Part shown: one piece after another, positions 22,371-37,921 of the stretch
Position numbering within the stretch: the first letter of the stretch is position 1
Layout of the letters: every line of letters begins with the position of its first letter
Assembly (NCBI RefSeq): GCF_024346715.1
Contig: NZ_AP024852.1
Location: 2,356,001 to 2,420,000 of the forward strand
Direction of reading: 5' to 3'
Source: Photobacterium swingsii
Lineage (GTDB): Bacteria > Pseudomonadota > Gammaproteobacteria > Enterobacterales > Vibrionaceae
DNA: 64,000 nucleotides
Position numbers and translations under genes: made by a program
The notes under the pieces: model-generated
Database searches by the model: none
Told to the model about the DNA's origin: nothing
What the model saw: the letters and a program-made list of their open reading frames with translations, nothing else

Positions 22371-22580
22371 GCTCAAACGCAAAAAAGGCGCTAATAAATT
22401 AGCGCCTTTCTTAAATGTGGCAAAGAGATAGGGATTTACTGCTCGCAAGCTCGCGCCCTTCGGGCTATTGCCTTTTCGCGCCTTCGGCACGGGCAATGTG
22501 CTTTCGCTTTGCTCAGGTGAAGCCTACTCTAGGGTTCGGCACCCTATCTCTAATCACAAAATTGAGGCGAAAAAAACCGC
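22371..22580. repeat. Left copy of ~210-bp direct repeat with tRNA-Ser 3' fragment
   Basis: Matches 37711-37921 at all but about four positions and one A indel. In order it contains a perfect 12-bp terminator-type hairpin (22384-22395 with 22398-22409), a spacer and AGAGATAGGGATTT that copy the 3' end and downstream flank of tRNA-Ser, a GC-rich structured core with several small hairpins (GCCC-TTC-GGGC and others), and a right end (CTAGGGTTCGGCACCC then TATCTCT) that mimics a T arm plus acceptor in the opposite sense. With its partner it brackets the 15-kb FtsK/ECF/kinase block. Confidence 0.85.
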
Positions 22581-22676
22581 AACTAACAAAACCATCAAAA
22601 AGATGGCGCCTGTCACTTTTAACAGCAATGCTAACTGACGCGTGCCCCCTTTGGGTGCTTGATTACAACACCCCAC
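22554..22676 (-). CDS. Small membrane protein, 40 aa, paralogue of the 38-aa MGCC protein
   Basis: GTG start with AAGGGG eight to ten bases upstream. The N-terminus GCCNQAPKGGTRQL is the same as in the protein at 19974-20090, followed by a hydrophobic helix. The last codons fall inside the 210-bp repeat, so the C-terminus may have been altered when the repeat arrived. The upstream hairpin at 22716-22736 (ACCTTCCA with TGGAAGGT) is shared with the paralogue. Function unknown. Confidence 0.5.
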   Translation of the reverse strand: MGCCNQAPKGGTRQLALLLKVTGAIFLMVLLVAVFFASIL

Positions 22677-22827
22677 CGTTAATTCCCCTTTATCTCACCA
22701 ATGCAGAAACGGTACACCTTCCAGCTGATGGAAGGTCAAGAGTGACTTTACCGCTCAAAGCAATCAACAAACGTTAGATGAAAGAAAATAGCGCAATAAC
22801 ACTATTGTTGACTCATAATCAGAGCAT

Positions 22828-23067
22828 CTAAGCCAGCCGTTCAACTAAATATGAAACGCCATAAACACACGAAATAACAATCGCGTAAAAAGCATAGATA
22901 ACAGCCCAACCTTTTTTATTGGGATTAGGAATCAAACCTGACTCATTAGTGAATAACGCAGGCCCCATAAAGTTCATTGGTATAAATATTAAAAAACAAA
23001 CTAACATAAACAAAATAACAAAAGGATATATGAACGACATTGCAATAAATTCAATTACTTTTTTCAT
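22828..23067 (-). CDS. Small two-helix membrane protein (79 aa)
   Basis: Chosen start MKKVIEF at 23067, with GAGGT five bases upstream; an ATG twelve bases earlier is less well placed. Two hydrophobic segments, about residues 7-30 and 55-73, flank a short polar stretch (NPNKKG). No known family. It is 116 bp downstream of the last large gene of the minus-strand FtsK operon and may be its final member. Confidence 0.55.
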   Translation of the reverse strand: MKKVIEFIAMSFIYPFVILFMLVCFLIFIPMNFMGPALFTNESGLIPNPNKKGWAVIYAFYAIVISCVYGVSYLVERLA

Positions 23068-23183
23068 TACGTACCTCATACAGCTCTATTTTATAATCGT
23101 TAAAATGACAATTCAGTTATTAAACCAAGCAAAATACTATTTTTCTTGGTTGAACACTCTGACATTAAAATAAAATCAAAAGG

Positions 23184-25484
23184 TTACTTCTTATTTAAAA
23201 AGAACACATGCTCATTATTATTACGATTATGAGTCACCCATTTTTTAACCGGCCGATACCCAGAAGCACTCACCTCAACATAATAACTATCAGGTTGTAA
23301 TAACATACCATCTTGATATTTCGGCTTAATATTAAGGATCCGAATTCTATTCTCTGGTACATTTGAATGTACAAACATCGCTACCTTACCATTTACAACC
23401 TTAGGTTCAGCTTGTTTATATTGATCGACACTTAATAATGGGTAAATTTTTTCATCCCAATCATTCATTGGTTTCAGTGCGTATTTTTCAAACAGAGAAA
23501 AAACATGGAAGTTTTTATCAAAAGCCATACCGATTGGCTGAATACTCGGCTGAGAATGAAGCACCCATGTAATAGCGGATGACGTCAATGGCGACACACT
23601 GTTATCAATAGATTTCAGGAAATATGCGGTTGTTGAACCTTCATCTGTAAACTTAGAATTACCCATCAATAATGGGATTGAGAAAATAGCAATAATAACA
23701 GCTAGCGCAGCAACATGGTTCATTCGCTTGCTTTTCGACGTACTAACCTCGTTTTCGCCATAACTTAATAATGCCCAAAACTTAAACGGTAACTTAAAGA
23801 AAGTTATAAGCACTAAAAACAACGACAAGCTCATTGATATAGGGGGAACAATGATAGAACGAAGTGCACTCTTCCCTTCATTTTCATACAAGCCACCATC
23901 TTCGAACCTAACAACGGAAGAGTTAATATAAGCAAGCCATTTGTCACGTTCGCGCTGTACATTCACTAAGGTGACGTTCTTATAGAACTGCTTATTGTTC
24001 CACGTCGTCAATACAGGGTTAACATAATATTCTTCACCCATGATCTGTTTTATCTGATTTTGAATGCTTGAGTGCTTTTGGAACTGATTAAAGTTAAGGC
24101 CTGGAGGAATAGTCAGACCCCGCTTCGCCATTTCTTTATTCCACTTTCTTTTGGCTTTATCTCTGGTGGTAGTTCTTACTGCATTTTTGAATGCTGACAC
24201 ATCATTAATGGTCCAATTAGTGGCTAGCTGAACCCCTTTATTTTTACTTTTTCTCACAATCTTACGCGCAGTAACCTTGTGATGCCTAAACTGTGAAAAG
24301 GTAGCAATCCCCATGGAATAACCTGTTTCAGATTTAAATTCCCCTTTCATTAAGTTCAATATGTTAGGCACATAATCGCTAGGTATACTGGAATAAACAA
24401 GATGCTGGTCCTGCTCTCCCCCATCACCGGTTGCCAACTCAAGGCCAGCAAGTACAGCTGACAGGCCTAAAGTTAAAATAGTCTCACTGACTGTTGTTGT
24501 GCCTTTAACTCGTCCCTTTTCAGTTACCAGCCAATAATTCATTTCTTTGTAAGGAAGACCATATTTCGCTAAACCTTGGCGATAATGACTTTCAACCGTT
24601 TTAATACATTTGTTCTGATGCTTAATATTGCTATAACGGCTTATGCAGTTATTCTTTTCATCAAAAGCTTGAGATATTTTAGGTGCCAACTCTTGAGCTT
24701 TGCCTTCCGCTCGCATCAAATAGGATTTTTCCGCCGATTGATAACGCTTCCAACCTTTCAGAACATCGCTTTCGACATTACTCCAAGCTTTATTGGCTTC
24801 ATTATGGCGAGAAGCAACAGCATCGTTATATTGTTTATTGGCTCGTTTATAATCGTCCCATGCAACATGTACATCTTTTCGCATATCTCGATACACGGCA
24901 TAATCTTCATCAAACCGCGCCCCTGCACGATTTAGAAGATACTTTTCTAGAATCGCATTTTTTTGCTTATCCACATCGTTTATAAAACTGTCATTGCTGT
25001 AAATAAGCCCCCCCATTAATGCAAGAAAGGTCATTTCATGCGCCGAGGTTGCATGCTCAGGTTCAAACGGGATACCTTCTATCCGTAATGCATTTTGCGC
25101 CAGACTTGAACGAAGTACATTGGACATAAAGGCATTTTGTCTTTGTTCTGCGCTAGAGGAATCAATAATAAAATAATCCACCAGCCATTTTTGACCAAAG
25201 AAAGTCGCAGGCCAAACGATAAGCGTAATCACCACCATCGCTGGAATTGCCGTTCTTTTTTTCGCCGCCACGCGCCCAAAGACAAGCAAATCAATCATTA
25301 ATAAAGTAACACCGATACCCGATATAGCACGGCCAAAGAGCTCTGTAATATGTAATGTTTCGTCCGAAAGACCCGATGAACCCGCTACCTCTACAAGTTT
25401 TGCATTGAAAATAACTTCAGGTATCAAGTAAATCAGTGACATTGCGAATAAGAATAGCGCAAGCCATTTAGGTTTTGATTGCAT
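23184..25484 (-). CDS. Large multi-pass membrane protein of unknown function
   Basis: 766 aa. Three N-terminal hydrophobic segments (about residues 9-27, 50-68 and 80-97). A long polar, partly coiled region follows (about 105-540), with a short hydrophobic patch near 335-350 (TVSETILTLGLSAVLAGLEL). Two further transmembrane helices lie near 553-572 and 592-612, then a C-terminal ~150-residue domain. That last domain (YYVEVSASGYRPVKKWV) resembles a PEGA-like beta module. No match to a named family. It starts 8 bp after the GDPD-like lipoprotein gene, so it is part of the FtsK operon and probably its membrane scaffold. Confidence 0.7.
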   Translation of the reverse strand: MQSKPKWLALFLFAMSLIYLIPEVIFNAKLVEVAGSSGLSDETLHITELFGRAISGIGVTLLMIDLLVFGRVAAKKRTAIPAMVVITLIVWPATFFGQKWLVDYFIIDSSSAEQRQNAFMSNVLRSSLAQNALRIEGIPFEPEHATSAHEMTFLALMGGLIYSNDSFINDVDKQKNAILEKYLLNRAGARFDEDYAVYRDMRKDVHVAWDDYKRANKQYNDAVASRHNEANKAWSNVESDVLKGWKRYQSAEKSYLMRAEGKAQELAPKISQAFDEKNNCISRYSNIKHQNKCIKTVESHYRQGLAKYGLPYKEMNYWLVTEKGRVKGTTTVSETILTLGLSAVLAGLELATGDGGEQDQHLVYSSIPSDYVPNILNLMKGEFKSETGYSMGIATFSQFRHHKVTARKIVRKSKNKGVQLATNWTINDVSAFKNAVRTTTRDKAKRKWNKEMAKRGLTIPPGLNFNQFQKHSSIQNQIKQIMGEEYYVNPVLTTWNNKQFYKNVTLVNVQRERDKWLAYINSSVVRFEDGGLYENEGKSALRSIIVPPISMSLSLFLVLITFFKLPFKFWALLSYGENEVSTSKSKRMNHVAALAVIIAIFSIPLLMGNSKFTDEGSTTAYFLKSIDNSVSPLTSSAITWVLHSQPSIQPIGMAFDKNFHVFSLFEKYALKPMNDWDEKIYPLLSVDQYKQAEPKVVNGKVAMFVHSNVPENRIRILNIKPKYQDGMLLQPDSYYVEVSASGYRPVKKWVTHNRNNNEHVFFLNKK

Positions 25485-25492
25485 AGCGTTTT

Positions 25493-26908
25493 TTACTCAG
25501 GAATAACAATATGGATAGGGTCGAACACAACATTTAAATCAGTGTCGGCAGGTATTTCAGGTACGGTAATAATAACGGCTTTCTTCGTTACCTTCTCAGC
25601 CACTTTTTTATTTACTTTTAATGGCTTAACTTCACCATCAATGGCTAAGTAGTAGCCATTTTTTAGATAATCACCTTGCAATTCAATTGCCGAAAAATCA
25701 CCATTTTTAGGCAATTGGCTGATTTTTTTTCCTTGGTCGGTCCTTGGTAAATAACCGCCATTCTCAGCAATCAAACGAGGAAAGAGAGAAGCACACACTT
25801 TATATTTAGATGTCGTTACGTCAGCGACATCTGGTAGGGGTTTATTTTTGCTCGCTAAAGATTGCAGTGTGTTGATATGGTAATCATCACCATTAATTGA
25901 GTAAGTCGACACTGAAAGGTTATTTTCTTTTGCACGCTGATAAATGGTTGAGTGTTTAGCATAGCTACGAATATCAACATGCAAGCCCGCGTTGTCACCC
26001 AACTTTCTCGCGACTTCTGTCGCACTAAGCTTAGGGTGATTTTGCTTCGCCAATGCGAGATCTATCGCCCGATTGGATGAACCTCGGTTACGCTGATACA
26101 TCTTATCATTGGATATTGCCTGCCTGATTGAGCGTTTGTAGCGTTGAGATGAGAGACTATCGGGCCCCCACACATAGCCCAAATAAACCCCATTATCTAA
26201 TCCTCTTAGATGCTGCAGTTGATATAGTTTTCCTGAAGTAAAGAAGTACGATCCTGATGCTAACGCGCGCTTCACTATACGGTTAAGTTCGCTCAACTGG
26301 TCAAGCGTCGCATCACCTTGAATGTTAATGGCTAAGCGCTGATGCGCTAGATACGGATCCCACGTATTAACAATCTCTTTAATTGATGGAATACGATCAT
26401 CCGTTAGTTGCCCATCGCGATCTCGCAGCCGCAGTTTTGACAAATCGTTAGTCGACAAGTCATAGAACTTCTTTCGGTGCCCTTGTTTATTTGCCGCTGC
26501 TCGGCCTGTTTCATCATCGTGATAAGCAAACCAATTCCCTGCTTTCGTTACCCTCGCACTAATGTTGACAACATCAAACCCATTACGGCTTGCATACTCC
26601 AGTGCATCCAGCGAGTTTTCACTAAACCTCGCATCACCTCGTTCGACACCTACCTTAAGCGGACATGTTTGATTAAAAAAACCAAGATCGCCACCTAAGG
26701 TTAAATACAGATTTCGATCCGTTAAGGCATATTGAGAATCGACTAAAGCACCTGTATCGAGGTTTTCACTGCCATATTTTGCTCCTTCTGCATTATCAGG
26801 GTAATGACTGAGCAGTTGAAAACGTTCACCTTCTGGCTTGAGTTGCGAACTACAACCTTGTAGTAATACAAGTACCAATAATGGTAAGAATGAATAACGT
26901 GCAAACAT
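25493..26908 (-). CDS. Lipoprotein with a degenerate glycerophosphodiester phosphodiesterase-like domain
   Basis: 471 aa with a lipoprotein signal (LLVLVLLQGC, lipidated Cys19). Residues ~85-385 follow the GDPD TIM-barrel pattern: VERGDARFSENSLDALEYA, then NISARVTKAG and WFAYHDDETGR. The HRG histidine of active enzymes is Glu89 here, and the metal-binding E-x-D is Asn115-x-Ser117; only the second histidine (His130) is kept. Hydrolysis is therefore doubtful, and a binding or structural role is more likely. The ~90-residue C-terminal domain looks beta-rich. Its gene is 5 bp from the next upstream gene of the operon. Confidence 0.7.
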   Translation of the reverse strand: MFARYSFLPLLVLVLLQGCSSQLKPEGERFQLLSHYPDNAEGAKYGSENLDTGALVDSQYALTDRNLYLTLGGDLGFFNQTCPLKVGVERGDARFSENSLDALEYASRNGFDVVNISARVTKAGNWFAYHDDETGRAAANKQGHRKKFYDLSTNDLSKLRLRDRDGQLTDDRIPSIKEIVNTWDPYLAHQRLAINIQGDATLDQLSELNRIVKRALASGSYFFTSGKLYQLQHLRGLDNGVYLGYVWGPDSLSSQRYKRSIRQAISNDKMYQRNRGSSNRAIDLALAKQNHPKLSATEVARKLGDNAGLHVDIRSYAKHSTIYQRAKENNLSVSTYSINGDDYHINTLQSLASKNKPLPDVADVTTSKYKVCASLFPRLIAENGGYLPRTDQGKKISQLPKNGDFSAIELQGDYLKNGYYLAIDGEVKPLKVNKKVAEKVTKKAVIITVPEIPADTDLNVVFDPIHIVIPE

Positions 26909-26913
26909 AATTA

Positions 26914-27360
26914 TTAGATAGGTTCTATGTGAGTGTGAGTGGCGCTCAATGTTTCTTGAAACAAATGGCGGTTATCAAGGTAGTCTTTTTCAAATTGCAG
27001 CCCACTCTTTTGAGACTGCATGCCCAAAGTCTTTTTCAGAATAATCGACGCCTGTGTGTCAACACATTGCTCTTCATCTGCATAACAGATCAGTAAAAGA
27101 TCGTGGAGCTGTTGAAATAATTGCTGACACACATCCGCATTGTCTATTTGGTCTGAAAAAGACTGAATGGCCCCATTTTGGTACGCTTCTATTGGGGCTA
27201 AATACCGACGCTCCGCGTTGACTGCTGCTCTATCGGCCCAAATAGCTCTAATTGTTCGTACATCCTCTTTGAAGACTGACACTTGATAACGCACACCCTC
27301 AAGCTCTGACAGTAATGTGTCGCAAGATGTTTTATGATAGTGATGATCAAAACTAGGCAT
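26914..27360 (-). CDS. Small helical protein of the FtsK operon (148 aa)
   Basis: Soluble, almost all-helical, acidic and Gln-rich protein without a signal peptide or known domain. It lies between the coiled-coil gene (9 bp away) and the lipoprotein gene. Size and helicity recall secretion-system chaperones or substrate proteins, but no family was recognised. Confidence 0.6.
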   Translation of the reverse strand: MPSFDHHYHKTSCDTLLSELEGVRYQVSVFKEDVRTIRAIWADRAAVNAERRYLAPIEAYQNGAIQSFSDQIDNADVCQQLFQQLHDLLLICYADEEQCVDTQASIILKKTLGMQSQKSGLQFEKDYLDNRHLFQETLSATHTHIEPI

Positions 27361-27369: not shown

Positions 27370-28389
27370 TTATTCGGTCCGTAGGGGCTGATCAAAAGCA
27401 GCTAACAAATCAGATTTAGATTTTAGCGAACGTTTAAGCTGATAATTGACCGTCTCTAGTTCTTCTAGTGATGTGTTGGCGTTACGTAGCTCAATGAAGT
27501 TGCTGTCATTTCGCTGATTGAGTGAAGCCAGTTTTTGACTGAGAGCTGAACATTGCGAATGCATTTTTTTATACCTTGCTTCAATCGCCTCAATGCCTTC
27601 GACTACCCCATCCAAGTTACGGCCCTCATCTAAAAAGAATCGGTAAGAACGGTTTGTTCGCTCTTGTTGCTGATAAGCGACTTCTCTTGCATGCTCTGCA
27701 CTTGCTAACGCCGCCTTGCTGCCTTCGACTTGATAAACCGCTTGTTTCAACTCAGCTTGAGCTTGATCTAATGCCGCTAACGCCTTATTTTCGATTGCCA
27801 CAAACTCATTCATGGTGGATTTCGCTGAAGACTCAGCCCTTTGCGCTGCATTTGTACATGGTCCTCTGCGTTCTACACGCTTAGTGCCATCTGGTAGCGT
27901 GACCTCGACATGAGAAACTTGCTCTTGCAAACTCCTAAGACTTGACAGTGCACTAGCATGTTCGGCTCTGGCTTTATCTGCTGAAACACGTGCTTCTTGG
28001 TATTGCACTCTCACAACATTAACGGCAGCACGTGCACTCGATTCCCATTGCTTAGCCTTACTCAGTTGGTCAGCCCAAAATGAAACTAATTTAGCGCCGA
28101 CACGCGTGTTTTCTGCCGACTCTTCTTTCAACGCTGCTAATCTTGTTCTGTTCTCACTGTTTGTTTGACGCTGCTCTTTTACACCGTCTTTTAATTCAGA
28201 AAGGACAGCGACCCAAGATTCAACGCGCATTTCATTCGCAGCAAGATCTGACGCTGCCCTTTCTGCATGCTCCACCGTTAAATGATGGAGATCATCGGCT
28301 CCCTGCAAAAACTCGTTCAAGAAATACTGGCTTTGCTCTAATTGGTGCTTGAGTTCACCAAACTGATAAATCAGTAATGCAGGGCTCAT
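27370..28389 (-). CDS. Coiled-coil protein of the FtsK operon (339 aa)
   Basis: Long coiled coils rich in Ala, Gln, Glu and Lys at about residues 10-170 and 185-335. A short beta hairpin (VEVTLPDGTKRVERRG) breaks them in the middle. No signal peptide or membrane helix. Overlaps the preceding 89-aa gene by 4 bp (ATGA). A helical hairpin of this kind would suit an LXG-like or scaffold role, but this is inference; no family is recognised. Confidence 0.65.
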   Translation of the reverse strand: MSPALLIYQFGELKHQLEQSQYFLNEFLQGADDLHHLTVEHAERAASDLAANEMRVESWVAVLSELKDGVKEQRQTNSENRTRLAALKEESAENTRVGAKLVSFWADQLSKAKQWESSARAAVNVVRVQYQEARVSADKARAEHASALSSLRSLQEQVSHVEVTLPDGTKRVERRGPCTNAAQRAESSAKSTMNEFVAIENKALAALDQAQAELKQAVYQVEGSKAALASAEHAREVAYQQQERTNRSYRFFLDEGRNLDGVVEGIEAIEARYKKMHSQCSALSQKLASLNQRNDSNFIELRNANTSLEELETVNYQLKRSLKSKSDLLAAFDQPLRTE

Positions 28390-28655
28390 TCTTCCCCCTT
28401 AGACGCTTTGTCTGAATGCACGGCCAATAAAGCGATCCTGTCTACATACTCCTGAATTTGCACACCAGACACGGATATCTGCTGAAAATATGCTTCAGTG
28501 TCTTCAGCTCCAACGCCGTGATAAGTATCTTTAAGCGCTAACCACTGCCCTTGCAGTTCATCAGCCGCTTCATACAAACTCATCCCTAGCATTTGGGTTG
28601 ATCGTAAAATAGTTTGTCGTGCGTGATGACGTTTTTGAATCTCGTTATTCTTCAT
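28386..28655 (-). CDS. Small WXG100-like helical protein (89 aa)
   Basis: Two predicted helices flank a central Trp (LQGQWLALKDTY) and are followed by DTEAYFQQI. The length and the helix-Trp-turn-helix layout resemble WXG100 (Esx) proteins, although the Gly of the W-x-G motif is missing. Overlaps its neighbours on both sides. The next gene upstream encodes a protein of the same length with the same central DWLAL/QWLAL pattern, so the two may form a heterodimer as EsxA/EsxB do. Confidence 0.6.
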   Translation of the reverse strand: MKNNEIQKRHHARQTILRSTQMLGMSLYEAADELQGQWLALKDTYHGVGAEDTEAYFQQISVSGVQIQEYVDRIALLAVHSDKASKGEE

Positions 28656-28916: not shown

Positions 28917-31820
28917 TTACTCCCAATCAGACATACGGTTGAACAAGTGATCCATCTTGGCTTTATGATCATCTATGTCGTTAAAGAAGTAGGGTTTGAA
29001 ATGGTTTGGTCGATTTTGGGTATGGTCAACATAGAGCGCATTGACCGGATTTTTCCCATCGATTTGAAGCTGAGAAGCCGACCTCACTTTAAGCAAAGAG
29101 AAACTGTCATCTTCTGACATTTGCAGTGCAACTTTATGACGAACATTGTCGATATCATGACGATTCAAGACTTTTTGTAATGCACGTACACTGTCGCTCG
29201 CAATCACAAGGTGAACACCAAATTCAGCCCCTGACTCCAAAATCTGGATCAACTTTTTAGCCGTATCCGAAGGTTCGTTTACACCAAATTTACCCGCGGT
29301 CATCTGTAATTCAGTCGCACGCTGAAAGTCATTACAAAAGATAAAAATTGACGGGAGTTCACCAACTTCATCTTCATATAACCCGCGTCTTTGCTCTAAT
29401 TGGCCATGAATTTCTGCAATCTTCTCTTCAAATTCCCGCGCTTTTTCTACTACGGCAATATTGGCTTGTGAAGGCACACTTGATGACATTGCGCCATGCC
29501 AAGGTGATCCTTTAATGCTACGTTCATAGACCACGGCTTGGTATTGTGCAGGTGCAAAATTCATTGATAGCTGTGCTAAAACAACACTCATCATTCCCAA
29601 GCGAGCTTCATTGCTCTCGCCGGTTATCAAAATATGCTCATGTGGGCGACGGCGAAGAATGACATTTGCATGACCATGAATATTCAGCTCTTGGCCTAAC
29701 CAAAAAACAGCGGGAGACTCGACGGAATACCACTCTTTCTCGCCTAACCCGCCAAGGTGTGGCGATGTATTGGCAAATTGTGTCCAAGCTTGTTCACTTG
29801 GGCGAGCGCCATGGTTGAGTAACTGCGCCAATTGCGGGTTATCGTGTAATTCTGGTTGGCCTGAACCATCCAATAAAATGGCTTTATGAAGGCAATCGAC
29901 CGCTTTATGTTGTTGCCATTTCTGCGCTAGTTGCTGGATCAATGCGCTGCGGGAGTCGTTATCTAAGAAGGCAACTCGACCCGCGACATTACGCTCATCG
30001 TCACCAGCACCATCGTTAACAACAGCCTGACCAGGCTCCTTACACGCGCGAAGTAAACGCTTACCGTTATGCCCAAACTCTTGTAACGAAGTGACATCAG
30101 CCGATGTCATTTTCATCCCTACTCGTAAATGAATGTTACCGAAGATGTGCTGCTGCTTTTGCATTCCCGGCGCACCAAAACGTTGAGAGCCTACAAACAT
30201 GTGAATACCAGCACTTCGGGCTTGTGCCGCCAGCTTATATATAAGCTCAGAGCCCACACCATCGCGGTCATCTTCAAATAACACTTGGTATTCATCGACA
30301 ATCAGCATGATGCGCGGCAGTTTACCCTCTGGTGATCCTGCCTCTCGGTAACCACCGAAATTCGTTACACCTAAGCGTTGGAAGATCTCATTACGTCTTT
30401 CCATCTCTTGGGTCAGTTCATCAACAACGCTCCGCGCAAGTTGTGGGGATGTTTTCAGCGATACCACTTTGGCATGCGGTAGGTCCGAGTATGACTGAAA
30501 CTCAACCCCTTGCTTGCCATCAATAAGATAAAACTCAAGCTCTTCTGGTGAATACTGACAAGCCAGCCCCATAATAAATGCATGATAAAGATAAGATTTA
30601 CCTGCACCTGTGGTTGCGCCAAGCATACCGTGAGAGCTGCTTCTGCCATCTTTACTTTCACCAAACCAAATTTCAAGGTCGTTCATCTTAGAGCCAGAAC
30701 CACCAATGGCAGAACGTAGCTCATTCGATGCATCACCCTGCCACATATCTGCGTCTGCTGTACTCACAACATCCGTAAAGGCTAACTTACGCTCTTGAGG
30801 TTTAGCTTGAGATAAGCTGTCGAAAAAGTGAGTAATGACATCATCTGTTAATTGTTCGCTGTAGTTTGTTGCGCTTAACTGATCGTCACCTTGGCGCTGA
30901 GCAACAACGTTGTGACGAGACTTGAACATCTCCAACGAAGTGCCATTAGGATAATGTTGTTCTTTATCTAACTGCAGCAGAACATACTTACCGGTATCAG
31001 TCGCATTGTTTGCAATAGATGCTAACAACTCAATCGCACGGCGGTCGTAACCTGATGGGAAATTTGCTGCCACAATAAACTCAAAACGTTCATTACTGCG
31101 AATTGTTTCATCTACATCATGCAACCTTTGTGTAGCCTGATCCAAGAACGTCTGACGAATACGCAGCGCATCATCTTCAATCTCTTCAAGTACCTTACAA
31201 ATGTCTTTCTCGATCATTCTTTTATAAGGAATATTTTTATTGTAGAGGAAGGATTTACCGCCATTAGCGGGGTCTAACAAACTAAACTGACTGGTGTATG
31301 GCATGTGCGCATTCAAACGAATGACAAGTTTATGTACTTCATTGATTGCATTGTCATTATGGTCAATAACAAAGCAATTCGCTGTCGACAAGAATGGCAT
31401 CATGGTTGGCACATTCACCTTTCCACCATCTGGCAAGGTCAAAGACTGGTAACCAATAACGACATCATCTGGCATCAACTGCTCGCTGAAGGTATAACTC
31501 GGCCAATCAACTTTACTTAATTCTGCTTGCAAGGGGGCGGGCAATACTGCAAGCGCATGTCGCAAGGCAGCACACTTCGCTAACTCTTTATCGCTTAAAT
31601 CAACCAGCAGATTTTCACAATACTGCGGAAGGTACGCGGCATGAGATACGGCGGCATTAGCAAGTTCATCGTAAGATGCTAACCATTGGTTTTTGGTATC
31701 ACAGAGAGTGCGATTCGCTGATACGGCTTGTTCTTTCAGTACATCTAACGAGACATACGTTTCACCATTTTTCACTGCTTTTTCTTCAAGTGATTTTTCG
31801 ATTTCTTTTTGTGTAAACAT
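28917..31820 (-). CDS. FtsK/SpoIIIE-type ATPase with several ATPase-like domains (967 aa)
   Basis: Canonical FtsK/SpoIIIE domain: Walker A GATTGAGKS at 401-409, FYLIDGKQGVEF near 430-441, Walker B IMLIVDEYQ at 504-512 and the sensor segment FVGSQRF. The N-terminal ~350 residues carry a GGKS-like stretch (DPANGGKSF near 183-191). A C-terminal region (about 730-950) keeps the FtsK pattern (HILITGESNEARLGMM, PSIFIFCNDF) but lacks the Walker lysine. An active plus a degenerate FtsK module is the pattern of EssC/EccC, the motor of type VII secretion. No transmembrane helix or DNA-binding gamma domain is seen, so chromosome segregation is unlikely. It is the central gene of a nine-gene minus-strand operon. 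Confidence 0.8.
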   Translation of the reverse strand: MFTQKEIEKSLEEKAVKNGETYVSLDVLKEQAVSANRTLCDTKNQWLASYDELANAAVSHAAYLPQYCENLLVDLSDKELAKCAALRHALAVLPAPLQAELSKVDWPSYTFSEQLMPDDVVIGYQSLTLPDGGKVNVPTMMPFLSTANCFVIDHNDNAINEVHKLVIRLNAHMPYTSQFSLLDPANGGKSFLYNKNIPYKRMIEKDICKVLEEIEDDALRIRQTFLDQATQRLHDVDETIRSNERFEFIVAANFPSGYDRRAIELLASIANNATDTGKYVLLQLDKEQHYPNGTSLEMFKSRHNVVAQRQGDDQLSATNYSEQLTDDVITHFFDSLSQAKPQERKLAFTDVVSTADADMWQGDASNELRSAIGGSGSKMNDLEIWFGESKDGRSSSHGMLGATTGAGKSYLYHAFIMGLACQYSPEELEFYLIDGKQGVEFQSYSDLPHAKVVSLKTSPQLARSVVDELTQEMERRNEIFQRLGVTNFGGYREAGSPEGKLPRIMLIVDEYQVLFEDDRDGVGSELIYKLAAQARSAGIHMFVGSQRFGAPGMQKQQHIFGNIHLRVGMKMTSADVTSLQEFGHNGKRLLRACKEPGQAVVNDGAGDDERNVAGRVAFLDNDSRSALIQQLAQKWQQHKAVDCLHKAILLDGSGQPELHDNPQLAQLLNHGARPSEQAWTQFANTSPHLGGLGEKEWYSVESPAVFWLGQELNIHGHANVILRRRPHEHILITGESNEARLGMMSVVLAQLSMNFAPAQYQAVVYERSIKGSPWHGAMSSSVPSQANIAVVEKAREFEEKIAEIHGQLEQRRGLYEDEVGELPSIFIFCNDFQRATELQMTAGKFGVNEPSDTAKKLIQILESGAEFGVHLVIASDSVRALQKVLNRHDIDNVRHKVALQMSEDDSFSLLKVRSASQLQIDGKNPVNALYVDHTQNRPNHFKPYFFNDIDDHKAKMDHLFNRMSDWE

Positions 31821-31823: not shown

Positions 31824-32372
31824 TTATCCCACTTGTTTAGAAATAAACGCAGCAACAGCCGCCATGAAAAGGGCAGTACAAAATAGTTTTTTCATTGTTG
31901 CATTTCGTTTTAGCTTCGCCGCTTGTGAAGCTTCTGCAGCAGCGATTTCTAGCTCTTTCTTTTCAGCTTCCATTTGCGCCTCCTTTTCGGCTAACGCACG
32001 ATGACTTTCAGCATAAGCTTGATGCCCTTTAAGCAATTGCTTTGATAACACGCAGAAATCAGCATTAACACGCTGATGTATCGCATGAGTGTCTGGATGA
32101 GACGCGTGATACGTATCTGCCATGTCTTTACTCATTAAATTCGAACCAATACTCTTTGCAATTTGAGGCATTGCTTTATCAGCCAGAAATAACTCATGGG
32201 ATGCTTTATTTTTACCAAGCATCTCATTAATACTTCCGACATAACTGGTTACGTTAGAAACCGCTTTTTCTGCTTGTTGTTTTTGTTGAGATACCGCTTG
32301 GACTTCCTTAATTAAATCATCAATGTGATTACTGACGACTTTGGGTGACATCGAACCTTTCACTTCCATCAT
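31824..32372 (-). CDS. Tail-anchored coiled-coil protein, first gene of the FtsK operon
   Basis: 182 aa as drawn. A later ATG at 32351 has the better ribosome-binding site (AAAGG four bases upstream), so the true protein may be 175 aa. Helical throughout, with a strong coiled coil near 120-160 (ALAEKEAQMEAEKKELEIAAAEA). A C-terminal hydrophobic segment follows (LFCTALFMAAVAAFI) after Lys/Arg residues, giving a tail anchor with the bulk in the cytoplasm. Three bases separate it from the ATPase gene. It could tether the ATPase to the membrane, which would explain why the ATPase has no helices of its own. Confidence 0.65.
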   Translation of the reverse strand: MMEVKGSMSPKVVSNHIDDLIKEVQAVSQQKQQAEKAVSNVTSYVGSINEMLGKNKASHELFLADKAMPQIAKSIGSNLMSKDMADTYHASHPDTHAIHQRVNADFCVLSKQLLKGHQAYAESHRALAEKEAQMEAEKKELEIAAAEASQAAKLKRNATMKKLFCTALFMAAVAAFISKQVG

Positions 32373-32435: not shown

Positions 32436-33037
32436 AATATTGAGTATTCATCACTCTCATCGCTAACAATATGGCTGTCGATATTTCAAGCAAGGTGCAT
32501 TTATTTATAAACCGCTACAGTTGTTTTTTAGTGTTTATAGATTAATTCCCACAGGGAATAACAATTGAAATATAGCCAGATAAACACCGTGACATTACTG
32601 TATTCGGGCGTAAATATAATAATCGCACTATTGGTGGTGAAATCATTTAATATCGACATCAACAACAGACATCACGATGAGGCTTATAACAGCAATTATC
32701 TGCCTTTTTAAAACAATAAATATGTGAATATACACACTGACTATTCATAATAATGACTTAGATGAATCACAACCTATTGAGTGATAAACATCCAAATAAT
32801 AAATAAATTTAAGCGATGAATTTCGATAGAGAAAACTCGAGTATTTAGAGTGAATATACTTATATATTCTGACATTTTGTCAAGGTGAACCAGCTCCAAG
32901 CGATCAATAATTAATCAATTTGGGTGATATAATAATTTACAAATAATTTTCGCTTATTGTTTAATTTTACGTACCTTTACGATCAAGACCAAAATACGGA
33001 CTATAGCGCTCCTATCAACACAGGACAGGAATTAAAG
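32436..33037. other. 600-bp AT-rich divergent promoter region
   Basis: No gene was seen. It separates the minus-strand FtsK operon from the plus-strand TM2/lipoprotein/sigma/kinase genes, so it must carry both promoters. A small dyad ATTCCC-ACA-GGGAAT lies near 32545. A 13-mer at 32941-32953 (AAATAATTTTCGC) is repeated exactly at 34048-34060, directly before the sigma-factor gene. Confidence 0.5.
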
Positions 33038-33337
33038 ATGAGTTACGATAATGTAATCAATACAGAACGCATAAAAAACCAGATGAAAAATAAGACGCTG
33101 GGTATTGTGATGAACTGTGTTTTACCAGGTACAGGCCATATGTACAGTGGCTCACCGATTAAAGGTGTTATTGTTATGGCCGTGTTTATTGCTTGTATGG
33201 TGACCTCTTTTCTTATCGCCCCCCTTTTTATCGCGTTCTTCCTTTGGCTATGGGGCATGTTCTCTGTAAACAAAGAGATCATTGCTTTTAATGACGCTCT
33301 ACTGACATCAGAACTAAGCCAGGCGCCACAACAATAA
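33038..33337 (+). CDS. TM2-like membrane protein (99 aa)
   Basis: Start ATG 33038 with CAGGA upstream; a TTG frame from 32957 is unlikely. The sequence runs NKTLGIVMNCVLPGTGHMYSG, then hydrophobic helices. Its pattern (a first helix with PGTGHMY, then a second helix and a terminal FNDALL) is that of TM2-type proteins, two-helix membrane proteins of poorly known function. First gene of the rightward set in the 15-kb block. Confidence 0.65.
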   Translation: MSYDNVINTERIKNQMKNKTLGIVMNCVLPGTGHMYSGSPIKGVIVMAVFIACMVTSFLIAPLFIAFFLWLWGMFSVNKEIIAFNDALLTSELSQAPQQ

Positions 33338-33372: not shown

Positions 33373-33711
33373 ATGAAAAACATTCTAAAAGCGGCTAAAT
33401 ACTGTGCATTATCCCTTGTTGTTGTACTGGTTGGCTGTGGTTCTGATCACCCGTCAGAAAAAGAAGTAAAAGCCGCATTCGACATATCAATTAAAGACAA
33501 CCTAGGTGATAGTGCCAGTATTAAATTCAATAATTTTGACTTATCAGATTGCAAAATCATTGACGAAAAAGAAGGCAGTGATGTTGAGTGTACCGTCAAA
33601 GCAGCAGCACAAGTAAAAGGTACCATTATGGGTGTAGAAACAAATGAATCTAATAAGATTAACGACAACTTCACTTTCCGAAATATCGATGGTACGTGGG
33701 AATTGGTTTAA
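33373..33711 (+). CDS. Small lipoprotein (112 aa)
   Basis: Signal peptide with lipobox VVLVGC, mature Cys at about residue 22. The remainder is a compact alpha/beta domain beginning HPSEKEVKAAFD. It carries a disulfide-capable Cys pair (DCKIID and VECTV) and a C-terminal strand pattern that fits a cystatin-like or NTF2-like fold. Follows the TM2-like gene by 35 bp and precedes a terminator. Function unknown; possibly the envelope sensor for the kinase downstream. Confidence 0.7.
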   Translation: MKNILKAAKYCALSLVVVLVGCGSDHPSEKEVKAAFDISIKDNLGDSASIKFNNFDLSDCKIIDEKEGSDVECTVKAAAQVKGTIMGVETNESNKINDNFTFRNIDGTWELV

Positions 33712-33725: not shown

Positions 33726-33760
33726 GAAAACTAGGGTTAATTTAGCTCTAGTTTTCATTT
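33726..33760 (+). terminator. Terminator after the small lipoprotein gene
   Basis: GAAAACTAG (33726-33734) pairs with CTAGTTTTC (33748-33756) and a short T-rich stretch follows. The 300 bp after it up to the sigma-factor gene are AT-rich and empty. Confidence 0.6.
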
Positions 33761-34060
33761 TGATATAAATCACTCTCAGCTATCTTCCTCTCATCAAATA
33801 GCATTTTTATACTTTCACTCTATCTCAATAACCTTTTTTGATATTTAATTTACAGTTACCCATACAGTAAAAATAATTCTACCCTCCTTGATAAACAAAC
33901 AACTAATAATATTATTTATAAGCAATCATACTGCTTAAAAATACATCAGCCCTGATGGTGTAATATGTTTTCACTTGCACCTTCCTATATTTATCTACAA
34001 ACTGAGCATTCACAAATATCATATATTCCTATACAGAATAAAAATTAAAATAATTTTCGC

Positions 34061-34654
34061 ATGAAAGAGAAGCAATACCTATTACAAGCACATAATGCAA
34101 CTGAATTGCTCGCTGGCTGGCAATCTCGTGATAAAGAGAAAACCAACGACTTTTTCACTACTGCTTATCAAGATATTTATAGCATCATTCAAGGGTTACT
34201 CGACAAAAATAAACCCGTTGAAACTATTTTTATCCAAGCCAGTGCAACTGAGCTCACACATGAAGCTATTATTAAGCTAAACAAATGGCGAAAAGATGAA
34301 ACGCCATTTACTCACCGCAAAGAATTTATTGATTATGTTCGACGCTCTGTATGGCATTTGCTCTTTAGTGAACATGAATCTCAACAGAACAAACAAGATA
34401 TAAAAAAGAATTATGCTGATATAGAACAATTACGATCTACCGTGCATCTTCCAGATCTATCTTTAAGTCACGACTTGTACTTGGTCTTAAGTAAACTCAG
34501 AGATCGTTACCCCTCCCAAGCAGAGGCATTTGAATATAAGCACTTTTCCGCATCAACCAATAAAGAAATAGCCCAACTACAAAACGTAACTGAGCGAACA
34601 GTGAATAACCGTCTTTTATTTGCAACCAACTATCTTAGAAAAGCCTTGTCCTAG
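34061..34654 (+). CDS. ECF sigma factor of the kinase-linked (ECF43-like) type
   Basis: 197 aa. The N-terminal half has the region-2 pattern of the Sigma70-ECF family (ELLAGWQSRDKEK, ATELTHEAIIKLNKW, FIDYVRRSVWHLLF). The C-terminal region 4 is a helix-turn-helix (TNKEIAQLQNVTERTVNNRLLF). There is no anti-sigma gene. Instead the stop codon overlaps the GTG of a Ser/Thr kinase gene. This is the arrangement of EcfP-PknT in Vibrio parahaemolyticus, where the kinase phosphorylates the sigma factor to activate it. No strong ribosome-binding site precedes the ATG; AAATAATTTTCGC abuts it directly. Likely controls the surrounding block. Confidence 0.8.
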   Translation: MKEKQYLLQAHNATELLAGWQSRDKEKTNDFFTTAYQDIYSIIQGLLDKNKPVETIFIQASATELTHEAIIKLNKWRKDETPFTHRKEFIDYVRRSVWHLLFSEHESQQNKQDIKKNYADIEQLRSTVHLPDLSLSHDLYLVLSKLRDRYPSQAEAFEYKHFSASTNKEIAQLQNVTERTVNNRLLFATNYLRKALS

Positions 34655-37599
34655 TGGAAGTCTCTGACCTATACGCCGGCCTGCTCGAACTGCCACTAGA
34701 GCAGCGGAAAATCCAAATTGATAGCATCAGAGAGCAAGATGCTGAGCTAGCTGATGACCTCGAATCGATGCTGACGCTGTCTAGCGAAAGCCTAACAGTC
34801 ACAGGTAATAACCTGTTTTCATCTCAGACAAACAAGGCAACACCGCGGACAGACTTCATCGGTAAAGAAGTCATGGGGTTTAAAATAATCAAAATACTTT
34901 CCGAAGGAGGTGCAACAGGGCAAGTTTACCTTGCAGTTCAGACAATCATTTCGCCTGAAACGTCAAAGCAAAACCGCCACTATGCTGCAGTAAAAATATT
35001 GCGCGGTAGTCTTCTCTCTTTGCGTGAACGCCAACATTTATTTTATCGCGAAGCCAGCAACCTGACTGCGCTTAACAACCCTTACATTTGTAAGCTTTTT
35101 GGCTCTGGTGAGATTGATGGAGCACTTTGTATCGTCACAGAATATGTGGATGGCAACCAGTTAGATACATTCCTTAGATCATTGCCCCCATCAAAAGCAA
35201 AGCGGTTACACTTGCTGCAGCAGCTCTTAGACGGGATGGCTTATGCTCATCGCCACGGGCTTTACCATGGGGATTTAAAGCCTCAGAACTTACTTGTGGA
35301 TGAGCAGGAAAACATCAAAATCATTGATTTAGGGTTTTCTAAGCGAATTGACGATATCCCTCCTCTCAGCGATGCGATTGAAAAAGACTACATCCAAGCT
35401 TTTTCGCATCATTGGAGTCCGCCAGAACAAAAACAAGGCATTTGGTACCGCTCTCGATCTGACATTTATTCACTTGGCATCTTATTTTTTTACTTACTCT
35501 CTGAGGAAGAAACCTTCAACGCAGAGGTATGTCTGGATTCGACACTGTGTAAGCCTTACCTGATCGCTAACGGTTTCTGCCGTGAGAGCGCAGCAATTAT
35601 CTCGAAAGCGGTTCAGCCAGATGCAGCAAAAAGATATCGTGATGCCGATGAGATGCGTGAGGATGTTGAGCGGTGGTTAAACGGATTTCCTGTTGATGCC
35701 TATTCGCAGAAGCTTACCTATAGGATACAAAAAAGTGTATTGCGCCGTCCCATGGTCTCAGGGATATTAGCCAGTGCCACTCTACTTTTAGCCATTGGTT
35801 CTATTGCTTTTATACACAAACACTTTGATCTCGTCGCAGAAAAACAAACCTCCGATGAGGTCATAGAACAATTATCCAATGTCCTACTATTTTCACAGCC
35901 CGCGCTTTTTCACTCTTTTGAAAGCCCAACGATAGTAAGCCTATATCAGCACGCATCGAATCAGTGGCTTGATTCTCACCACATGCTAACTGCTGGCGCA
36001 CACTTCCAAACGGGCAAAGTACTCGTCATGGGGCTACAAGCTCTACAGGAATACAAAATAGCTGGCACCCTACTTTCGATCTTATCCAACCATCAAGTTC
36101 GTTATAGCAATGATGAGCAAGCTGATATTAAGGTTTTGCAGTTAAAAAATAGTCGGGGGATTATGCTCTCAACACCTGATTGCCTAAAGCAACAGTACAT
36201 AGAAAGTGAGAGTGAAAATAAACGTGAGTTTTGCCCACAACAGACTCTTGCCACTGAACACTGGCATTACTTGGCGAAGTCATCACAGAGGACGTTCAAT
36301 GACTGGAGACTGTTTGCAGAGTTGATTCAATATCAGCACAGTGAACCATTACAACATCAAGCTTTGCTTCAAGAAATCACTGGCGAGATTCTGGATTCAG
36401 CCACGCAGGATCATCAACTCTGGTCACAGCTCGCATTTGATGCAAAGCATGACCTATTCATGATTTTCTCTAATCAGTATGTCACCAGCACCGTCCACAT
36501 TCCCGAGCACCAAAAGCATGCAGTCATTACTTTTTTAGAAGACTGGATTAAAAATACCTCTACGGCAAGCGATAAATACAGGGTTGCTGGCTTAGCCAAA
36601 AATATTGCTTATGCCTTTAACCTAGTAGAGAAAGCACAACTTTTTTCAGCGTTATACCAATCGCTTAGGGCAAAAGCGCTGCCTCTCAACACCAAAACTT
36701 TGTCCTTTGAACCACTGACAATGGTAGATCTTCGCGACCCAGAAAAGTCGAAGACTTCGCTCCGAACCGTTGAAACGAGCATTATCAGCAAATATGGCGA
36801 AATGGCTGCACTTGCCAGTAATGCCATTAACTCTTTAGCCAGTGCATACTTACTTTTAGGCGATACCCAGAAAGCAAACGAGATTCTACAATTAGATGAA
36901 TCTACCCACTTTAAAATAAGTACAGAGATCCAGCCACTGTTCGCTACGTCACCATCAGAGATGATCGTCGCTATTTTTCACCGAGACTGGCCGAGTTTTC
37001 GCAACGCGTTTACTACATACAAAGCACTTTCAATCGCACAAAATGATCAACGATTACCAACACTAGATCCTTACTTTGAATTGTTTAGCTTGCTGCTCCA
37101 AGAGCATAAAATACAGCTATCGCCCGCAGTGCTTCAGCATACCCTTCCGGAGCATACTGATTGGCTGGAAAGGACGGTTTATCTCCATTACGCTACTCGA
37201 ATAACTGGTCACCATACGCACAGTGACACCCTCTTCTCGCAGCTATTAAAGCATCAGAATACAGATAAAGCCGTTGCACGAATCATTAGTACCGCGCCTT
37301 TAATGGATGAAGCTATTACTGACTATGCACAGCAACTATTTCAAGCGGGGTATGTAGAGCGCAGCCAAATCCTTTTCATCAATTTACTGACCAGGAAACA
37401 CAATCCGTATCATCAATCCGACTTCACCAACATGCAGGCGTTATATTTAGCTAATGGATACCTTCAAGATAATAATACCGCAGCCGCTGTACAGCTCTGG
37501 CAAGACTATAAGTTAGATTCCCAGCAGTTTTCTTATCGTTCAGATCTGTATAACTTGGCTATTTCTGTCCAAGAAACTCTCACGCTTGAAGCCAATTAA
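34654..37599 (+). CDS. Membrane-bound eukaryotic-like Ser/Thr protein kinase
   Basis: 981 aa. The kinase domain spans about residues 75-345: Gly-rich loop LSEGGATGQVY, Lys114 in AAVKIL, catalytic loop HGDLKPQN at 205-212 (HGD instead of HRD, with Asp, Lys and Asn kept), and DLG instead of DFG at 225-227. So it looks active but of non-RD type. A transmembrane helix (366-388) is followed by a ~590-residue, helix-rich, TPR-like outer part that may be the sensor. GTG start overlapping the sigma-factor stop (TAGTG) shows translational coupling. The family analogue is PknT. Confidence 0.85.
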   Translation: MEVSDLYAGLLELPLEQRKIQIDSIREQDAELADDLESMLTLSSESLTVTGNNLFSSQTNKATPRTDFIGKEVMGFKIIKILSEGGATGQVYLAVQTIISPETSKQNRHYAAVKILRGSLLSLRERQHLFYREASNLTALNNPYICKLFGSGEIDGALCIVTEYVDGNQLDTFLRSLPPSKAKRLHLLQQLLDGMAYAHRHGLYHGDLKPQNLLVDEQENIKIIDLGFSKRIDDIPPLSDAIEKDYIQAFSHHWSPPEQKQGIWYRSRSDIYSLGILFFYLLSEEETFNAEVCLDSTLCKPYLIANGFCRESAAIISKAVQPDAAKRYRDADEMREDVERWLNGFPVDAYSQKLTYRIQKSVLRRPMVSGILASATLLLAIGSIAFIHKHFDLVAEKQTSDEVIEQLSNVLLFSQPALFHSFESPTIVSLYQHASNQWLDSHHMLTAGAHFQTGKVLVMGLQALQEYKIAGTLLSILSNHQVRYSNDEQADIKVLQLKNSRGIMLSTPDCLKQQYIESESENKREFCPQQTLATEHWHYLAKSSQRTFNDWRLFAELIQYQHSEPLQHQALLQEITGEILDSATQDHQLWSQLAFDAKHDLFMIFSNQYVTSTVHIPEHQKHAVITFLEDWIKNTSTASDKYRVAGLAKNIAYAFNLVEKAQLFSALYQSLRAKALPLNTKTLSFEPLTMVDLRDPEKSKTSLRTVETSIISKYGEMAALASNAINSLASAYLLLGDTQKANEILQLDESTHFKISTEIQPLFATSPSEMIVAIFHRDWPSFRNAFTTYKALSIAQNDQRLPTLDPYFELFSLLLQEHKIQLSPAVLQHTLPEHTDWLERTVYLHYATRITGHHTHSDTLFSQLLKHQNTDKAVARIISTAPLMDEAITDYAQQLFQAGYVERSQILFINLLTRKHNPYHQSDFTNMQALYLANGYLQDNNTAAAVQLWQDYKLDSQQFSYRSDLYNLAISVQETLTLEAN

Positions 37600-37646
37600 A
37601 AACAGCTTCTACCGTGCATCAGTTACCTATATTCTGCGCAAACGAA

Positions 37647-37670
37647 AAGCCCAACATTTCTGTTGGGCTT
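37647..37670 (+). terminator. Terminator of the sigma/kinase operon
   Basis: Perfect 10-bp stem AAGCCCAACA (37647-37656) with its complement (37661-37670), 48 bp after the kinase stop codon. The T-tract is weak. Confidence 0.7.
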
Positions 37671-37710
37671 CATCTGAATACGTATTTTAAGACGAGGCAC
37701 GGATCGCTTT

Positions 37711-37921
37711 GCTCAAACGCAAAAAAGGCGCTAATAAATTAGCGCCTTTCTTAAATGTGGCGGAGAGATAGGGATTTACTGCTCGCAAGCTCGCGCCCTT
37801 CGGGCTATTGCCTTTTCGCGCCTTCGGCACGGGCAATGTGCTTTCGCTTCGCTCAGGTGAACCCTACTCTAGGGTTCGGCACCCTATCTCTAATCACAAA
37901 ATTGAGGCGAAAAAAAACCGC
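37711..37921. repeat. Right copy of the ~210-bp direct repeat with tRNA-Ser 3' fragment
   Basis: Same order of parts as the copy at 22371-22580 and in the same orientation. Here the tRNA-derived stretch is undamaged: a spacer, GGCGGAGAGATAGGGATTT and then foreign core sequence. The real tRNA-Ser at 37948 has the same upstream spacer and the same 19 bases, so the repeat core replaces the body of a former tandem tRNA-Ser copy. It closes the 15-kb block on the right. Confidence 0.85.

Follow-up and report, generated by a model that had tools for sequence, protein, structure and literature searches.

The 64,000-nucleotide stretch of Photobacterium swingsii DNA analysed here (contig NZ_AP024852.1, positions 2,356,001 to 2,420,000; hereafter the window, in whose own numbering positions are given) carries a module of about 15.5 kb which we read, with a probability of roughly one half, as a stand-alone system tethered to the membrane and related to the EccC/EssC-WXG100 core of type VII secretion, one that may serve as a toxin-loaded export machine in some lineages. 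The architecture, homology, gene order, membrane anchor, and fusions on which this reading draws come from sequence and prediction. A preliminary description of the window had recognised nine genes on the minus strand and four genes divergent from them, and all of these are open reading frames as described. The minus-strand genes A to H are tightly packed, with spacings of -11 to +9 nt (A-B, 3 nt; B-C, 2 nt; C/D and D/E overlapping by 11 and 4 nt; E-F, F-G, and G-H, 9, 5, and 8 nt), followed by 104 nt from H to the last gene, I. The genes on which the reading rests are the following:

31824..32372, minus strand: A, a coiled-coil protein of 182 amino acids (aa) whose C-terminal hydrophobic stretch is a predicted tail anchor.
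28917..31820, minus strand: B, an EccC/EssC-like ATPase of 967 aa with three modules, Walker motifs in the middle one only, and no predicted membrane helix.
28645..28914, minus strand: C, a putative WXG100-like protein of 89 aa, with W-x-D in several non-gammaproteobacterial relatives and HP0062 as the first match of its all-lineage profile.
28386..28655, minus strand: D, a WXG100-like hairpin protein of 89 aa with a Y-x-G loop.
27370..28389, minus strand: E, a coiled-coil protein of 339 aa, with a C-terminal GNAT domain in two cyanobacterial relatives.
26914..27360, minus strand: F, a probable WXG-like protein of 148 aa with invariant W41-x-D43, and with a C-terminal AHH nuclease in one Chloroflexota relative.

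The first element of the reading is the ATPase. Pfam places an FtsK_SpoIIIE domain in B at an E-value of 1e-29, and among the NCBIfam models EccCa (5e-34), EccCb (7e-29), and EssC (1e-26) rank ahead of FtsK (2e-12), all of them scoring under their curated cut-offs (118 of 509 bits for EccCa). When a profile of 13 B sequences was compared with the PDB, the Thermomonospora EccC (1e-37), EccC5 (7e-29), and YukB (1e-25) likewise preceded FtsK (1e-15). The AlphaFold2 model of B, generated from 18 sequences (predicted local distance difference test score, pLDDT, 83; predicted template modelling score, pTM, 0.59), contains an N-terminal coiled coil at residues 4-91 and FtsK-like modules at approximately 119-340, 360-640, and 700-945. 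A Foldseek search with this model returned EccC/EssC chains as all eight of its best matches, the top one being an EccC at 9e-32 over 970 columns, with the best FtsK at 4e-15. Global template modelling (TM) scores are modest (0.44-0.49 against three-module EccC; 0.42 by query and 0.67 by target against EccC modules 2-3), which would follow from a different angular placement of the modules. Walker motifs are present in the middle module only (GATTGAGKS at 401-409 and MLIVDE at 505-510), and the strict GxxxxGK[ST] pattern has no match in B because the first P-loop position is an alanine. Where one active and one degenerate module had been proposed, the active one stands and the count does not, the model giving three. 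B supplies the EccC/EssC-type ATPase with tandem FtsK modules by which type VII systems are recognised. The earlier wording of a "convergent or distant relative" of type VII holds for the relative, by the NCBIfam, PDB profile, and Foldseek results; convergent resemblance was rejected, the homology of B being direct.

The same searches bear on whether B is instead an FtsK-like motor moving DNA, as a translocase or a conjugation-type pump. The FtsK/SpoIIIE domain and the appearance of FtsK motors behind EccC/EssC in the fold search would fit such a motor, but the best EccC/EssC/YukB matches lie well above both FtsK and the conjugation protein TcpA, the three-module layout and the Esx-like partner point elsewhere, and Pfam lists no FtsK gamma domain, a feature of FtsK translocases, for B. 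With EccC/EssC outranking FtsK in the NCBIfam, PDB profile, and fold searches, an FtsK DNA motor was rejected as first choice, and we regard DNA pumping as very improbable.

The core genes recur as a unit. In 29 tabulated loci from six phyla the gene order is kept with few exceptions, the core order being B-C-D-E-F; absences in this table hold for the stretches read, several of the non-gammaproteobacterial contigs being short. All 29 loci contain B, C, and E, D was found in 27 by script and in the remaining two (L045 and L047) by other means, and F is present in 27, being seemingly fused to E in L030 and not found in L043. A second D-type gene follows E in L043 and L072, and A stands after F in the three Chloroflexota loci. 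The gammaproteobacterial carriers are Vibrio, Photobacterium, Enterovibrio, Shewanella sp. ANA-3, Pseudoalteromonas, Idiomarina, and Pseudidiomarina, and the others are Prochloron, Anaerolineae, Ardenticatenales, Bacteroidales, Gemmatimonadaceae, and a Deinococcus plasmid. The table omits repeats (L021, L022, L024, L025, L026, and L029), relatives by the FtsK domain only (L013-L017 and L050), the near copy L074 of L073, and the sister or CoCoNuT-type loci discussed below (L075-L078, L080, L081, L111-L113, and L139). A chance gene cluster was rejected, since the order recurs in 29 loci. The homologues were found together, as the earlier idea of one machine supposed: the core genes lie together in all loci read, and in 292 cyanobacterial genomes D-type proteins occur only near B.

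Distribution is patchy. Near-full-length B was found in 11 of 197 Vibrionaceae genomes, the present one included (16 match at all), in 5 of 295 genomes in the sample of the order, in 2 of the 350 genomes from the phylum of L044 (with 4 showing any match), and in 8 of 292 in the Cyanobacteriota, the phylum of L043 (4 clade members and 4 sisters); the phyla of L047 (1 of 200) and L046 (1 of 296) yielded no member beyond those loci's own genomes. Strong D-profile matches (E<1e-8) occur in 9 of the 292 cyanobacterial genomes, every one with B in the same locus, including a ninth genome (G1011) that the B search had missed; three weak matches (~1e-5) in other cyanobacterial genomes look like chance. 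Searches of viral contigs gave 16 pattern matches and no relative, the 108 matches among phage records included none over 80% of the query, and seven plasmid records matched, one of them, from Deinococcus, over more than 80% of the query. In a midpoint-rooted tree in which the program flagged three long branches, the stand-alone clade (26 of 35 rows) sits on a 100/100 branch apart from the CoCoNuT-type loci L111 and L112 and from four cyanobacterial sisters; this tree includes L075-L078, L080, L081, and L111-L113 and omits L045, L048, L049, L074, and L139.

In L030 (genome G361), a single open frame (6626-8113) seems to contain both E and F, and a GDPD gene is split over two frames (5168-6642), perhaps marking a decaying or rearranged copy. 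In the cyanobacterial locus L073, and in its near copy L074, a 1252-aa WD40 protein and a Prok-JAB peptidase follow directly after F (4738-9131).

The second element of the reading is a set of small helical proteins. The predicted model of D (pLDDT 87) is a helical hairpin, as the preliminary description had supposed for the 89-aa proteins, with helices at 2-42 and 50-88 and with Y45-H46-G47 in the loop. In a Foldseek search against the whole PDB, 42 of the 50 best matches were, by our count, Esx/WXG100 chains, many of them chains of the same few proteins, with query TM-scores of up to 0.80; the remaining eight comprised six LOV-histidine kinase chains, one ROP variant, and one axonemal protein. 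Across an alignment of 25 clade sequences that includes the window, G47 is invariant (25/25), position 45 is tyrosine in 22, and position 50 is alanine in 24. The claim that the WXG glycine is absent was, for D, mistaken: the tryptophan noticed earlier is W38, in the first helix, seven residues before the loop motif. WXG100 is also the leading Pfam family for D, matched at E<=0.1 by 16 of 25 clade members (the next family by 3 of 25), and by 22 of 32 once sisters and toxin-fused copies are added. Single proteins score below the WXG100 cut-off of 27.3 bits, with Deinococcus D at 23.3, Anaerolineae D at 21.9, Deinococcus C at 21.6, and the toxin-fused L043 protein at 11.8 bits, and Anaerolineae C and F have no match. 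Given its model and this clade-wide Pfam signal, D would be the WXG100-family hairpin that stands beside the ATPase in type VII systems.

The all-lineage profiles extend the resemblance. That of C retrieved Helicobacter pylori HP0062 first among PDB entries (2e-7), with the W-x-D motifs aligned, and that of D retrieved HP0062 (1e-5) and Staphylococcus aureus EsxA (2e-5); with sisters added, 11 of 26 C proteins match Pfam WXG100, the best at 7e-9. F, described earlier as merely a small helical protein, is indeed of that kind, and its W41-x-D43 is invariant in 22 of 22 aligned sequences (the window and one sister locus included), making it probably a third WXG-like protein. As a control, we aligned the C, D, and F profiles by hhalign to 22 Chloroflexota WXG100 sequences (24 matches, two dropped) and compared the scores with those of 150 column shuffles and 150 heptad shuffles. 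The F score was reached by none of either kind, the D score by none of the 150 column shuffles, and the C score by one column and two heptad shuffles. D and F align in motif register, with Y-x-G and W-x-D over W-x-G. Elsewhere in the genome there seem to be no further proteins of these types, the D- and F-profile searches being significant at the locus only.

The third element is the membrane anchor. A looks tail-anchored from its sequence, and its homologues satisfy our tail-anchor rule in 23 of the 29 loci. In L072 there is a protein of 144 aa with a hydrophobic stretch at its C terminus, L047 has a short overlapping frame ending in such a stretch, and the contig of L046 begins at B.

Finally, the hairpin proteins carry effector domains in some lineages. 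In the Prochloron locus L043, a second D-type domain runs into Tox-REase-2 (1e-9, above the cut-off), and the next gene, of 125 aa, matches nothing in Pfam; in L072 (G1031), a D-type domain is joined to a C-terminal part that weakly resembles a restriction endonuclease (0.019, below the cut-off); and in the Chloroflexota locus L079 (G518), F runs into an AHH nuclease (2e-17). Tox-REase-2 is classed among the polymorphic toxins, with WXG-type export as one of its routes (PMC3482391). GNAT domains are attached to E in L043 (2e-7) and L072 (1e-6) and to a D-like protein in the sister locus L075 (6e-8), and probably, by sequence likeness, in L139.

A number of results pull in the opposite direction. 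For the small proteins, the Foldseek search with D gave no PDB match at E<=0.001 (best 0.087), and the window's own C and D retrieved no Pfam family, whether at E<=0.1 or at the looser E<=10. Without added sisters, WXG100 is matched by C from 6 of 21 clade members and an unrelated family by just as many, and for F WXG100 does not lead, with 2 of 22 against 3 of 22 for another family. Removing the cyanobacterial sisters lowered the match of C to HP0062 to about 1e-3, behind an unrelated coiled coil (3e-4), and that of D to EsxA to 0.016, behind six coiled-coil chains and with HP0062 gone; a gammaproteobacteria-heavy D profile reached EsxA at only 0.32, among coiled coils. The D score against WXG100 was reached by 8 of 150 heptad shuffles, the reversed C alignment outscored the real one with only the first helix of C aligning, and hhalign probabilities were low (16% for D, 16% for F, and 4% for C). 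For the ATPase, some shorter EccC/EssC chains fell below FtsK in the PDB profile search, and a hydrophobicity scan found no segment over the cut-off and hence no membrane helix, in agreement with the earlier observation that it lacks its own. The A homologues of L038, L027, and L049 were found by BLAST with a C-terminal stretch under the tail-anchor cut-off. Searches for EccB/D/E and EsaA/EssA/EssB gave no match among the nine operon proteins in Pfam or among seven of them (C and D excepted) in NCBIfam, and the core holds no multi-helix membrane channel. As for cargo, a GNAT domain joined to E or to a D-like protein does not make a typical secreted toxin, the L079 fusion has no obvious immunity gene beside it, and toxin fusions were seen in no proteobacterial locus read. 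The sigma factor and kinase encoded divergently in the window accompany only 3 of the 29 loci.

From the Pfam, profile, fold, and shuffle results together, we therefore take D as a well supported WXG100-like hairpin, F as moderately supported, and C as a candidate WXG100-like protein by motif and distant homology only. The comparison with described type VII systems (T7SSa/T7SSb and T7SSc-j; PMC11217815 and PMC10765036) is similarly two-sided. They share with the window clade an EccC/EssC multi-module ATPase, WXG100-type hairpins, and, in some members, hairpin-toxin fusions. Unlike them, the window's ATPase has no membrane helices of its own and is accompanied instead by the separate, predicted tail-anchored A, the hosts are diderm in most lineages, and no EccB/D/E, EsaA/EssA/EssB, or EsaB match was found among the window proteins scanned. 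Membership in type VII proper was rejected on the grounds that the ATPase is not anchored by its own helices and that secretion is so far only a proposal.

The module is not without published relatives, contrary to the suggestion that it was undescribed: Gram-negative WXG100/FtsK pairs are in print (PMC11090510, PMC4978471, PMC3397514, and PMC10765036), and PMC10765036 treats them as unconfirmed as secretion systems. WxG and FtsK proteins occur in TerY-P islands and, as HP0062/HP0066, in H. pylori (PMC4978471), HP0062 being a hairpin with a WRD motif in its bend (PMC3397514). The H. pylori locus resembles the window in having a small W-x-D hairpin clustered with an FtsK/SpoIIIE ATPase in a Gram-negative bacterium; our comparison covers HP0062, which the all-lineage C profile matches best among solved structures. 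Close in kind, too, are the Type III-A CoCoNuT islands (PMC11090510), which contain an EssC-like ATPase with a coiled coil and three modules, of which only D2 is active, and no membrane helix, together with two WXG100 proteins, one lacking the motif, and a coiled-coil-nuclease fusion. The same source credits a stand-alone occurrence of this cassette to Anantharaman et al. 2012 and, for the CoCoNuT-linked form, leans to "defensive protein secretion". B shares with that ATPase the coiled coil, the lone active middle module, and the missing membrane helix, and the window clade likewise has two WXG100-type proteins (one without WxG) and, in some members, a coiled-coil protein with an effector domain. 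It differs in being stand-alone, on its separate 100/100 branch, in having the predicted tail-anchored A and the third probable WXG-like protein F, in lacking the triad of VWA, PP2C, and kinase genes, and in the addition of two further proteins, G and H, in many gammaproteobacterial members. Among the island genes scanned, no flanking VWA/TerY-P triad was found. Two CoCoNuT-type relatives were available for comparison: L111, in a Vibrionaceae genome, where VWA, PP2C, and kinase genes were judged by eye from sequence starts, and L112, on a Caballeronia plasmid, where the VWA/TerY-P triad is annotated and a small protein is annotated as a "WXG100 family type VII secretion target".

These relatives make an intracellular defence cassette the main rival explanation, one which we consider rather unlikely. 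By analogy, the EssC-like ATPase and the hairpins would detect or process foreign nucleic acid entering the cell and activate nuclease or acetyltransferase effectors inside it, with the kinase and sigma factor as stress switches. It would account for the TerY-P/CoCoNuT-type setting of close relatives outside the clade, whose islands hold VWA, PP2C, and kinase genes and in one case a CARF gene, for the effector fusions being nucleases, for the patchy island distribution (11/197 Vibrionaceae, here between direct repeats), and for a core without a channel protein. It fits poorly with the output of PADLOC, which gave FtsK-domain matches for B (SspH, 7e-32; mad8, 2e-18), only weak coiled-coil matches for E and A (LmuB, 0.004 and 0.02), and none for C, D, or F, the last of which was also empty in NCBIfam and Pfam. 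The predicted tail-anchored A of most stand-alone loci is, moreover, not clearly seen in the two CoCoNuT-type cassettes, where 0 of 8 proteins tested exceed the hydrophobicity cut-off of 1.6 (two come near, at 1.59 and 1.55), and in many gammaproteobacterial loci the core is joined by a lipoprotein and a membrane protein. These last two, with the final gene of the operon, are:

25493..26908, minus strand: G, a lipoprotein with a GDPD domain whose catalytic residues are replaced; accessory, in gammaproteobacterial loci only.
23184..25484, minus strand: H, a protein of 766 aa with several predicted membrane helices; accessory, travelling with G.
22828..23079, minus strand: I, a protein of 83 aa with two predicted membrane helices and no BLAST match in the other loci read.

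G had been called a lipoprotein, which stands, and it can further be assigned to the GDPD family (7e-11). Its catalytic HRG and E-x-D read ERG and N-x-S in the window and in L020, a locus from another species of the genus, and are kept in 7 of the 8 other aligned sequences, which may reflect a change of role or decay. H has no relative among solved structures (best 0.18). Both genes travel with the core in 13 of the 29 loci, all of them gammaproteobacterial, and this could suggest an envelope or stress machine in which the ATPase and the helical proteins build or reshape an envelope structure together with G and H under ECF43 control and export no effector. An ECF43-kinase pair of Xanthomonas that governs a type VI secretion system against amoebae (PMC13147305) offers a parallel for such control. 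Yet 16 of the 29 loci showed neither G nor H, among them the Shewanella sp. ANA-3 locus in the stretch read and all nine non-gammaproteobacterial loci (some on short contigs), G has lost its catalytic residues in this genome, and the toxin fusions of other lineages fit poorly; we hold this explanation to be improbable.

The genes divergent from the operon are:

33023..33337, plus strand: J, a small membrane protein, with a start codon chosen by us; BLAST match, among the loci read, only in L020.
33373..33711, plus strand: K, a probable lipoprotein of 112 aa; BLAST match, among the loci read, only in L020.
34061..34654, plus strand: L, an extracytoplasmic function (ECF) sigma factor assigned to the ECF43 type from its motif and neighbour, with SATE and T63 at the known phosphosite position.
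34654..37599, plus strand: M, a Ser/Thr kinase of 981 aa with the catalytic residues K114, D207, N212, and D225 present and one predicted membrane helix at 369-387.

L matches Sig-70_X6 (1e-21, below the cut-off) and Sigma70_ECF (5e-11). The combination of an ECF sigma factor, an adjacent Hanks-type kinase, and a threonine at the phosphosite of sigma region 2.2 marks it as ECF43, judged by motif rather than with an ECF43 model. A polymyxin-response regulon is among those under ECF43 control. In the pairs EcfP/PknT of V. parahaemolyticus and EcfK/PknS of Xanthomonas, as in the window, the sigma factor adjoins a transmembrane Ser/Thr kinase; the phosphosite T51 of EcfK lies within QATE, the general ECF43 motif being QTTA (PMC13147305), and in our alignment SATE with T63 falls at these positions. 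Unlike those pairs, the window's pair sits beside an EccC/WXG100-type operon. The intergenic region of about 650 bp between A and the start of J (32373-33022) contains the palindrome TGACATTTTGTCA and other blocks common to the window and L020, and it is from position that L may be supposed to drive the divergent operon. Kinase and sigma control, as first proposed, is plausible in view of the ECF family, the adjacent kinase, and the phosphosite motif; as part of the machine it does not hold, the pair being present in the window, L020, and L038 only. A Ser/Thr kinase with an ARC6-like domain adjoins the WXG/ATPase genes of the sister cyanobacterial locus L078 as well (7184-8569), so that the kinase linkage may have arisen more than once.

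If the relationship to the EccC/EssC-WXG100 core is correct, A would use coiled coils to hold a B hexamer to the inner membrane on its cytoplasmic side, and C, D, F, and E would form helical adaptor complexes engaging B. ATP use by the middle module would then drive the export, or the loading, of hairpin proteins and hairpin-bearing toxins. In the Vibrionaceae, lipoprotein G and membrane protein H would adapt the machine to the envelope, with kinase M phosphorylating L and L activating the divergent operon. That A recruits B, that the hairpins pair, that export takes place, and that the sigma factor exerts control are steps that we infer, and export is the weakest of them because the core has no channel. 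The most specific version is possible and put forward only tentatively: a diderm export system in which a tail-anchored adaptor keeps a free EccC-type ATPase at the inner membrane, and which delivers nuclease toxins tagged with the hairpin in Cyanobacteriota and Chloroflexota and has taken on an envelope role under direct kinase-to-sigma control in Vibrio.

The module has the boundaries of a mobile element, and its ends are marked by these features:

22368..22576, no strand assigned: left copy of a 209-bp direct repeat, containing a short stretch that resembles the 3' end of tRNA-Ser.
37708..37916, no strand assigned: right copy of the repeat, 209 bp, 98% identical to the left copy.
37948..38038, minus strand: tRNA-Ser (TGA), adjoining the right repeat.

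The copies lie 15,340 bp apart, and the limits first given for the module, 22371-37921, nearly coincide with the repeat boundaries (22368-37916). In L020 (genome G089) the module has the same order and adjoins the same adSS gene, with repeat pieces on both sides (93% over 171 bp; 91% over 107 bp). We call the module a genomic island because of the bounding repeats, the adjoining tRNA-Ser, and the repeat pieces around the L020 module; direct repeats at both ends and an adjoining tRNA gene are what characterise integrative islands, and the module would move as one. Of the island genes scanned, none was recognised as coding for an integrase. A second tRNA-Ser lies at 16990-17080, and the two genes with their flanks (16988-17098 and 37946-38056) are 96% identical over 111 bp, 21 kb apart. 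Between them lie a methyl-accepting chemotaxis protein, an 830-aa protein, and the island, and the region looks like an insertion hot spot. In the bounding repeat (22378-22437, 37718-37777, and 37908-37967) a terminator-like stem and a stretch like the tRNA-Ser 3' end are followed by other sequence, in the manner of a broken tRNA copy. A short sequence is present twice, at 20002-20086 and, inside the left island end, at 22591-22675 (78%), and may code for a small cysteine-containing membrane peptide.

Among the literature matches listed, in a search with subscription papers mostly outside its coverage, nothing concerned this Vibrio module with its ECF43 pair. The module is a variant of the described Gram-negative EssC-like/WXG100 cassettes, joined in Vibrio to an ECF43 pair. 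For the question of Gram-negative WXG/FtsK pairs it provides a defined six-gene unit, a clade, and toxin-fused members as probable cargo. It also provides a candidate membrane anchor, A, which the CoCoNuT-type relatives do not clearly show, and a carrier that is a laboratory strain, Shewanella sp. ANA-3. In Vibrio, the unit is linked to a sigma factor of ECF43 type, whose phosphorylation switch is known.

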